DNA of 20,334 nt from a virus: positions 1 to 20,334 of the IMG/VR virus record IMGVR_UViG_3300023210_000292. One strand, written 5' to 3'. Made by a program: the position numbers and the translations under genes. The notes under the pieces were generated by a model. The model was given only the letters and a program-made list of their open reading frames with translations, was not told the DNA's origin and searched no databases. This document shows, piece by piece, positions 12,243 through 20,334 of this stretch (the first letter of the stretch is position 1; each line of letters opens with the position of its first letter).

Positions 12243-12266
12243 GTACTATTTTACAACCCACTAATA

Positions 12267-17156: not shown

Positions 17157-17215
17157 CTGCGCTCCTTTTGCGGTTATAGACACGCTTTGTAGCAAGAACG
17201 TGTAGGTCTATATCT

Positions 17216-17244
17216 ATTATAGCACACTTTAAAGCAAATGTCAA
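17216..17244 (-). promoter_or_regulatory. Sigma-70 promoter with extended -10 (P1), start of late block
   Basis: On the minus strand: TTGACA (17244-17239), a 17-base spacer, TGC and TATAAT (17221-17216). It is a perfect consensus pair. The start should be near 17209, leaving a leader of about 50 bases. The spacer begins TTTG as in P2, and the three copies are clearly one family. Confidence 0.88.
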
Positions 17245-17355
17245 GCTTTATTTTCACCAAACAGCAAATAAATCAAAAACCTGAGTTTGTGCAAGTGGAG
17301 TTACGTGTAAGTAGTTGGAATTACTGGGGTTAGCTAAAATAAAGTGGAAAAACTG

Positions 17356-17439
17356 GGCGAGTGTCTACTTCTTCTAGGTGAAAGCCCTTCGTTCGGTGTA
17401 CATTTGAAGCGGCTGGTCCTCACTCGTGCCTTTCACACC
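17356..17439 (+). other. Possible H-type RNA pseudoknot
   Basis: GGCGAGTG (17356-17363) can pair with CACTCG and CC at 17421-17430 (two-base bulge). Inside that loop, GGTGAAAG (17377-17384) can pair with CTTTCAC and CC at 17430-17439 (one-base bulge). The two stems cross, which is pseudoknot topology, sharing one base at 17430. An inner CTTC/GAAG pair could also form. Each stem alone could be chance. Confidence 0.25.
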
Positions 17440-17542
17440 CATTCTCAAACTAGCGGGGCAAAAAAATGTGCAGAAGTTAATCTCATTCACCTGCAATTCC
17501 CAAACCCACTCCCCAAATCCCTTAAAGCCGTACATATGGCAA

Positions 17543-17631
17543 TACGTATTTGTGTACGTATGTGTGTGTGGAAGTATGGGTAATGATACTAACTACTTAT
17601 GTACTTACGTATGTGCTTACGGGCTTACGTA
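17543..17631. repeat. Cluster of four TACGTA sites (iteron-like)
   Basis: TACGTA occurs at 17543-17548, 17555-17560, 17606-17611 and 17626-17631. The first three extend to TACGTATTTG or TACGTATGTG on the same strand, the fourth to TACGTAAATG. Between 17593 and 17631 the related 8-mers ACTTATGT, ACTTACGT, GCTTACGG and GCTTACGT follow one another. Spaced repeats of one word in an intergenic region suggest binding sites of a replication or regulatory protein. Confidence 0.55.
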
Positions 17632-17644
17632 AATGCTGCTAGCC

Positions 17645-17711
17645 TGATAATCGAAGCGATCACTTCCTTATATGGGGAAACGGCTCTCCTGTTAGATTGC
17701 TGAGATTATCA
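17645..17711 (+). other. 67-base hairpin with a symmetric GA/GA internal loop
   Basis: TGATAATC (17645-17652) pairs perfectly with GATTATCA (17704-17711). Inside it, GA faces GA (17653-17654, 17702-17703), and then AGCGATC (17655-17661) pairs with GATTGCT (17695-17701) with one G-U. The 33-base loop contains a further TTCC/GGAA pair. In plus-strand RNA the GA/GA can form stable sheared pairs; on the minus strand it becomes UC/UC and the G-U becomes A-C. So the structure favours a plus-strand RNA. Confidence 0.5.
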
Positions 17712-18103
17712 TAACAATCATCAACAATTCCGCTAGCTTACTCTCCTTTACTGCCTTCAATCGCCCGATATCTTCAATAATATCAATAGGTTGACCCTGC
17801 CGCCTCTTGTGAGTGTCTAAGCATTGGTCATTGAACGTTTTGAATACACCTCCAACAATTTCATGGAGTTACTCGCCCGATTTCACCTGATTTCAGTAGG
17901 TTATATTTTTGGGGGTGTCTAATCCTTAGCCATGCCAACTATTTATAAGCCTTTGATATTGTTGGTACTTAGTTTGGCACAGGTTCTGCAATACTATTAG
18001 TGTCTCCTGAGTTACTCTAACTTAGTAGAATAGGTGAAACTCTTCACTGAATAAGTATTACATTAATAATAACGGTGACTTGTAAAATAGTTCTAAAGTT
18101 TTC

Positions 18104-18132
18104 TTGACAAGTACCGATAAGTAAAATAGTAT
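18104..18132 (+). promoter_or_regulatory. Sigma-70 promoter of the plus-strand operon
   Basis: TTGACA (18104-18109), a 17-base spacer, and TAGTAT (18127-18132), which differs from TATAAT at two positions. The start is expected near 18139. It is the only good plus-strand promoter seen before the small-gene operon, and faces away from P1. Confidence 0.65.
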
Positions 18133-18390
18133 TAAGGCAGAACTGGAGCAACGAAGCCAGTATAAACGTAGAGCGTTTTAATAGAATAGTACCACCTATC
18201 TAATTGTACTAGTATGGCACGTCAACGACCGAACGTAATCGGTGCGTGGGATCAAAGCTCTCCCATTTTTATCAGAATCTTTGCGGCCTAAATCTTTTTA
18301 ACTGGCCGATACTTGAGCCCCGATTGAGTTGCGGGTGACTAGGGAAGTTATAGCACAATTATCAGGATTGAAAGTCCCTGTAGTGTAAGA

Positions 18391-18468
18391 ATAGACTGCT
18401 TTAGTGCGAGTCCTTTCTCCAAATTGAACGTAAATTAACGGACAGTCTATCCGATTTTTTAATAGACT
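18391..18468 (+). promoter_or_regulatory. Mutually exclusive pairing element in the leader
   Basis: AGTCTAT at 18444-18450 can pair either with ATAGACT at 18462-18468 (local hairpin, loop 11 with a U-run) or with an identical ATAGACT at 18391-18397 upstream. Two identical partners for one strand are what a switch or attenuator needs, though function is untested. Confidence 0.35.
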
Positions 18469-18555
18469 ATTGTACTAGGATCAAACGCAATTAAAATGAG
18501 TCCTAATGGTTTTGGAAGTACAACCATTTAAATCAAAGCTTCTGGCATAACTCCG

Positions 18556-18634
18556 CTGCAATAATAGTAACTGAATTGATAACTCGGTGAAATTATTGCG
18601 GTTGAATTAAGGACAGCCACAACTGTCTTTAGTT
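18556..18634 (+). other. Two long adjacent hairpins ahead of the first ribosome site
   Basis: CTGCAATAAT (18556-18565) pairs with ATTATTGCGG (18592-18601), 10 bp with one G-U, and its loop holds a second stem ACTGA/TCGGT (18570-18574, 18584-18588). Next, AATTAAGGACAG (18605-18616) pairs with CTGTCTTTAGTT (18623-18634), 12 bp with two G-U, loop 6. The second ends 11 bases before the ribosome site AAGGAG. They could control translation of the first gene or close the 3' end of a structured RNA. Confidence 0.6.
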
Positions 18635-18656
18635 GAACCAACAAAGGAGTCAAGTA

Positions 18657-18818
18657 ATGTTAACAACAGTTGAATTAGACTATGTAGAATGTGCACTGGG
18701 TCGAATCCCAGTAGCAAACGAAATCATCGAAATTGAATGCGGAAGCGGCTACCATTTTCAAGTAGTCGGAAGTCCTACGCCATATGCAGTAACCCTTAGA
18801 CAAGTCGAGGTAGTATAA
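18657..18818 (+). CDS. Hypothetical 53-residue protein, first gene of plus operon
   Basis: A 53-residue protein starting MLTTVELDYVECALGRIPVANEIIEIE, then GSGYHFQVVGSPTPY and AVTLRQVEVV. The pattern suggests a small beta-rich domain with one helix, no membrane span and two cysteines. The ATG at 18657 has AAAGGAG upstream; an in-frame TTG at 18633 lies in the 3' arm of a hairpin and before the ribosome site, so it is rejected. It follows the structured leader directly. Family not recognised. Confidence 0.6.
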   Translation: MLTTVELDYVECALGRIPVANEIIEIECGSGYHFQVVGSPTPYAVTLRQVEVV

Positions 18819-19848: not shown

Positions 19849-20056
19849 GGTAACACACGGACAGGAGGTGTTTAGGGAGAACAAGTTCTATGGCTTCACC
19901 TATAGCCTAACGGTGGTTTCTTGGGACCGTTATTACGGTCTTATGAATACTACCAGTTACATGATAGTTGGTGATGGTATGATGTCAGAAAAGAAGTTAC
20001 TAAAGTATATGAAGAAATACAACTACTACACAACAAAGAAGGTAGGTGAAGTATGA
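19829..20056 (+). CDS. Hypothetical 75-residue protein
   Basis: A 75-residue protein with a beta-rich first part ([20 protein letters not shown], then [16 protein letters not shown]) and a basic helical C-terminus ([15 protein letters not shown]). It is unusually rich in Tyr (about ten). GGAGG lies eight bases before the ATG, and it overlaps the lipoprotein gene by 20 bases. No family recognised. Confidence 0.6.
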
Positions 20057-20334
20057 AGATACTACACAAGATTACAGGTGAGGTACTTCTTGAGATTGAT
20101 ATCTTGAGAGGTGCTTACTTGGGGGGTGTTTACTTGAGAGGTGCTAATTTGGGAGATGTTGATTTGAGTGGTGTTAACTTGGGAGATGTTAACTTGAGAG
20201 ATGTTGATTTGAGTGGTGCTGACTTGAGTGGTGCTAACTTACACGGTGCTAACTTAAGAGATGCTTACTTGAGAGGTGCTGACTTGAGTGGTGTTGACTT
20301 GAGTGGTGCTTCTGGAATACTTTCATTCAGTGCA
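20053..20334 (+). CDS. Pentapeptide-repeat protein, cut by window edge
   Basis: The first 94 residues of a protein that runs off the window. After an N-terminal [16 protein letters not shown] come 14 tandem pentapeptides (residues 17-86) of the A-D/N-L-x-x type, e.g. [15 protein letters not shown], followed by SGILSFSA. Pentapeptide repeats fold as a right-handed square beta-helix; some (MfpA, Qnr) mimic DNA and guard DNA gyrase, but most have unknown roles. The start overlaps the upstream stop as [16 protein letters not shown] before the repeats resembles openings seen in other pentapeptide proteins, as I recall. The end and any C-terminal domain are outside the window. Confidence 0.85.
20101..20310 (+). 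repeat. Fourteen 15-bp tandem repeats coding pentapeptides
   Basis: Units of 15 bases such as GACTTGAGTGGTGCT repeat with changes at a few positions, using the same Leu codon TTG in nearly all units. The uniform codon choice points to recent unit duplication rather than ancient repeats kept by protein selection only. Confidence 0.85.

Follow-up and report, generated by a model that had tools for sequence, protein, structure and literature searches.

Paired hairpins beside the first early ribosome site in the long predicted leader of an uncultivated tailed phage

The window analysed here is the whole of the 20,334-base IMG/VR record IMGVR_UViG_3300023210_000292, which comes from an uncultivated tailed phage with a genome of ~66 kb. 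Near-identical DNA is present in three other IMG/VR contigs, and because the two ends of one of these, 66,241 bases long, overlap by 417 bases, we take that contig to be a near-complete, circularly closing genome. Late genes (terminase, portal, capsid) run in one direction over ~36 kb and early genes (polymerase A, helicase, Sak annealing protein) in the opposite direction over ~26 kb, and the two blocks part at window positions 17210-18656. This divergent region between the leftward late operon and the rightward early operon contains no credible ORF and is the biggest gap without genes in the 66-kb genome; the near-identical contigs differ there at three positions in 1,457 bases. The first early gene (18657-18818, plus strand) encodes 53 aa, has no PHROG match, and carries a Shine-Dalgarno GGAG at 18646-18649, read in the sequence 7 nt 5' of its ATG at 18657. 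No tRNA genes were found in the window or across the 66-kb genome, and a tRNA T-arm look-alike within the first early gene (18695-18712) was taken as coincidence. Pentapeptide-repeat genes, at window 20053-20334 and at 61118-61819 and 65544-66005 of the 66-kb contig, are the sites that vary most among the near-identical contigs over the stretch compared, their repeats showing many T/C differences.

Genome-wide, six promoters match TTGACA-17-TATAAT perfectly, each with TGC before the -10; on the 66-kb contig (L017-L020) they lie at 2991, 7993, 21243 and 28412 (plus strand) and at 42841 and 56117 (minus strand). A box like TATAAAATAGTAC stands immediately 5' of the -35 at several of them. The late promoter at 17216-17244 on the minus strand is one of the six, a 12/12 match whose box is also present in G006 and L044. 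The promoter facing the early genes, TTGACA-17-TAGTAT at 18104-18132 on the plus strand (-35 at 18104-18109, -10 at 18127-18132), scores 10/12 against the consensus because of the TAGTAT at its -10, a score that is weak alone since 10/12 matches also occur by chance elsewhere in the genome. What supports it is conservation in L053, a distant relative with a terminase 32% identical to that of the window phage. Together with its flanks CTAAAGTTT and TACCGATAAG the early promoter spans 18085-18136, and L053 carries a block, CTAAAGTTT..TT......TACCGATAAG, that matches it without gaps over ~45 bases and precedes TATAAT, with the 17-base spacer, the place and the orientation all as in the window. 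This alignment scores 19 against a shuffle maximum of 18, none of 300 shuffles reaching 19. Sequence and conservation thus bear out the plus-strand promoter proposed in an earlier note on this DNA. Another box, GTAAAATAGT, occurs twice around the early promoter (18082-18096 and 18121-18135) and again at 12245-12254, ahead of a late promoter; it is possibly a regulator site.

A transcript starting ~7 nt past this -10 would run through a predicted untranslated leader of ~518 nt (18139-18656, plus strand) before reaching the ATG, an unusual length given that the leaders of all six perfect promoters are shorter than ~60 nt. The leader holds no gene: the longest plus-strand ORF beginning inside it is under 40 aa, and none of its translated pieces has a credible match in relatives, which agrees with the earlier note's impression that no convincing gene is present. 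Nor was a terminator found in the plus direction between the early promoter and the first early gene. In L053, the one relative that shows this junction, the gene begins ~32 nt past the same promoter, and the ~490 extra bases here raise the thought that the leader might be what is left of one or several decayed small early genes, stretching from the promoter to the first intact gene. We consider this improbable, as translated pieces of the leader show no match to early proteins from the relatives or from the phage itself.

Folding of the leader RNA places its structure at the 3' end. The earlier note had proposed a large structured RNA of ~520 bases as a candidate, which the folding does not bear out: the whole 518 nt give z = -1.7 against shuffles, and the 5' four-fifths (18139-18549) are at chance level (z = +0.38). 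The sole variant in that part and in the leader, a G/T difference at 18168, disrupts a predicted 5' pair. All four stems that the note listed are present, namely two of 7 bp (18444-18450/18462-18468 and 18505-18511/18522-18528), one that reaches 11 bp with G-U pairs (18555-18565/18592-18602) and surrounds a 5-bp stem (18570-18574/18584-18588), and one of 12 bp with G-U pairs (18605-18616/18623-18634). The further claim that they exceed chance holds for 18550-18650 alone and fails for the two 7-bp stems, whose segment (18444-18549) has z = -0.08. Watson-Crick stems of at least 7 bp number 5 in the leader against 1.0 in shuffles, a count matched by 0.7% of shuffles; with G-U pairs allowed the figures are 17 and 14, which is ordinary (24% of shuffles match). 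The segment 18550-18650 itself reaches z = -6.4 when picked after the fact and -5.1 on fixed 120-nt tiles.

Two abutting hairpins account for this signal. Hairpin A (18558-18599, plus strand) consists of an 8-bp lower stem and the inner 5-bp stem at 18570-18588, with z = -3.8 and a pair probability of 0.98. Hairpin B (18600-18639, plus strand), which directly adjoins it, pairs 4 bp and 12 bp around one mismatch beneath a CCACAA loop, includes two G-U pairs, and has pair probabilities of 0.97-1.00; it is far more stable on the sense strand (z = -5.95, -19.4 kcal/mol) than on the antisense strand (z = -2.1, -10.4 kcal/mol). As one 82-nt unit (18558-18639) the hairpins fold with -31.3 kcal/mol and z = -7.1 sense versus -4.1 antisense, so that the leader RNA does contain structure above chance, as one would look for in a regulatory 5' leader, and their sequence is invariant in every homologous copy. 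In a scan of the 66-kb genome the pair ranks first of 22,054 82-nt windows, with a narrow lead (z -5.92 vs -5.86 for the next windows). The same scan also picks up a hairpin at ~39.59 kb, where the two operons converge and a functional structure of this kind is expected. The 3' edge of hairpin B lies 18 bases upstream of the ATG and 6 nt short of the Shine-Dalgarno sequence. On the other side of the pair, ACTCC at 18550-18554 is complementary to GGAGT at 18646-18650, and the helix between them would turn A and B into arms of a three-way junction; we treat this pairing as a possibility, since its probability varies from 0.39 to 0.85 with the length folded and it is gone when 18540-18760 is folded.

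These observations bear on the earlier suggestion that 18139-18656 is a large ornate RNA of the GOLLD or ROOL type, discrete and abundant. GOLLD is structured along the whole RNA, with covariation to back the structure, and ROOL is a discrete, abundant transcript that forms a homo-octamer. The window leader resembles GOLLD in being non-coding, phage-borne and hundreds of bases long, and ROOL in being phage-borne and of similar total length; its length of ~520 nt, its source in a phage and a promoter of its own count in favour. It differs from both in having no Rfam match and no tRNA neighbours, in being structured in its last fifth alone, and in being joined to an mRNA. At the gathering score, Rfam covariance models gave no GOLLD or ROOL match anywhere in the window, and at E<=10 the stretch 17200-18750 yielded just chance miRNA and virus matches with scores far under the cut-offs, so that neither these families nor any other was matched. 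GOLLD is frequently found near tRNA genes (PMC12286853), and here there is no tRNA island. With the missing terminator, a first 410 nt that fold no better than shuffled sequence, the lack of a homologue in 27 sources, a leader sequence that is not conserved in relatives, and the short leader of L053, membership in this class now appears very improbable. The candidate giant phage RNA is thereby removed and a defined element of 100 nt takes its place, one that probably serves local gene control.

Relatives of the phage were collected by terminase alignment, which gave 22 loci at 30-100% identity and so widened a set of four contigs, 44-47% identical, that the capsid protein had brought up. One relative, L043, is 67% identical in the terminase, but its contig begins within that gene. 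Searches with the portal, terminase or polymerase protein alone recovered the same phage only, as did the early-gene proteins; a two-row portal alignment search added nothing further, annotated phages showed no DNA similarity, and GTDB genomes gave no match. In every closer relative whose contig extends into the divergent region, this region is likewise large and without genes, measuring ~1.4 kb in L053, no less than 1.3 kb in G006, and 0.8 kb or more in each of L050 and L051; overall, the gene-free stretches of relatives at this place span from at least 0.8 to 1.5 kb. Outside the promoter blocks no sequence in it can be aligned to the window. We can describe a control region for a phage clade that the annotated phage records covered here barely contain and in which they show no cultured member: it has six perfect promoters, an early promoter that is conserved, and a large, repeat-rich, gene-free stretch of divergent DNA at a fixed place.

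The abundance of short repeats in equally large gene-free stretches of the relatives (G006, L050, L051, L053) and the lack of conservation of the leader sequence also fit a different explanation, that the whole 1.45-kb region acts at the level of DNA, probably as an origin with promoter and regulator sites, in which case the leader would be transcribed incidentally and the hairpins would be palindromic binding sites or chance. Cumulative GC skew is lowest at 17210-18656 and highest near 40 kb, where the operons converge, a profile that fits a replication origin at the divergent region but is not independent evidence for one, because the coding strand changes at the same point. GTAACT/AGTTAC is enriched in L050, L051 and L053, whereas motif counts inside the window are weak, and the G-U pairs that improve folding of the hairpins on the sense strand would be needless in a DNA palindrome. 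On balance we regard this explanation as a possible but lesser contender. In the window, four TACGTA palindromes cluster together with GTGTGTG at 17543-17632 and are possibly binding sites, and a diverged repeat, CGCCCGAT.TC...AT.TCA.TAGGTT, was spotted by eye at 17767-17803 and 17876-17910. L051 has GCATTAC palindromes. G006 (L040) carries tandem arrays with units of 14 nt (TTAACTCGACCTAC) at 17606-17735 and of 12 nt (TCACTCCCCGGA) at 18112-18174; the arrays are origin-like, and over the first of them each strand gives z about -7 to -8.

Another set of phage leaders offers a further comparison. The put antitermination RNA binds the beta' zinc-binding domain of RNA polymerase and gives terminator read-through. 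In phage HK022 the put RNAs are ~70 nt long, form two stem-loops and lie in early leaders, putR at ~270 nt from the start site (PMC9378689). Going by that description, hairpins A and B share with putL and putR the two adjacent stem-loops of ~70-80 nt and the place in an early-operon leader, and differ from them in abutting the ribosome site. By this analogy the 82-nt pair might bind the host polymerase, whose use is consistent with the sigma-70-type promoters of the genome, and allow read-through of terminators in the ~26-kb early operon. The operon itself argues the other way: terminator-like sites are no more frequent in it than by chance, almost none on the sense strand, and two more perfect promoters within it would lessen the need for antitermination. 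We therefore think a put-like role unlikely. We hold out equally little hope for the broader idea that the hairpins constitute a new RNA element, independent of proteins, which either modifies host RNA polymerase, with put-like action and unrelated sequence, or switches early translation, though an action on polymerase would make them a second kind of RNA-only antiterminator.

We favour, at roughly even odds, the other alternative in the earlier note, a regulatory leader of the early operon: 18139-18656 would be the 5' untranslated leader, and its terminal hairpins would set how stable the first early message is or how well it is translated. This fits the promoter shared with L053, the sense-strand z score, the first rank in the genome, the missing terminator and the location of a strong pair of hairpins beside the ribosome site. 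We infer that the leader is transcribed, that the hairpins fold in the cell and that they affect decay or translation. Transcription would start at the conserved sigma-70-type promoter (18104-18132), and most of the leader would be filler without structure, specific to the lineage, or sequence for control at the DNA level, leaving the final ~100 nt as the part active in RNA. Hairpins A and B would stack end to end, probably folding right upon transcription, and could shield the ribosome-site end of the message against nucleases, toggle the ribosome site open and closed through the pairing of ACTCC with GGAGT, or do both. Bacterial mRNA is known to be stabilised by 5' hairpins and by strong ribosome sites (PMC3997798). 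The likeness to such leaders is a strong hairpin in an untranslated leader beside a ribosome site; the difference is that stabilising hairpins are usually found right at the 5' terminus, whereas the predicted start is ~420-500 nt away from the two here. Against a regulatory leader stand the small margin over the next genome windows, the dependence of the pairing that would hide the ribosome site on folded length, and the results from relatives. L053 uses the same promoter with its ~32-nt leader and has no hairpins like A and B there, a covariance model of the hairpin element found no homologue in 27 sources, and the DNA pattern of hairpin B with a free loop retrieved the same phage only. From comparison of the sequences, the best reading is that the hairpin-bearing early leader is lineage-specific.

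In L051 (1-840), L050 (1-795) and L059 (551-579), a second promoter directed toward the early genes stands beside the late promoter. It reads into DNA without genes, and in L051 this DNA has strong structure (z = -5.5). That site would be a better place for a discrete phage RNA, should the clade have one.
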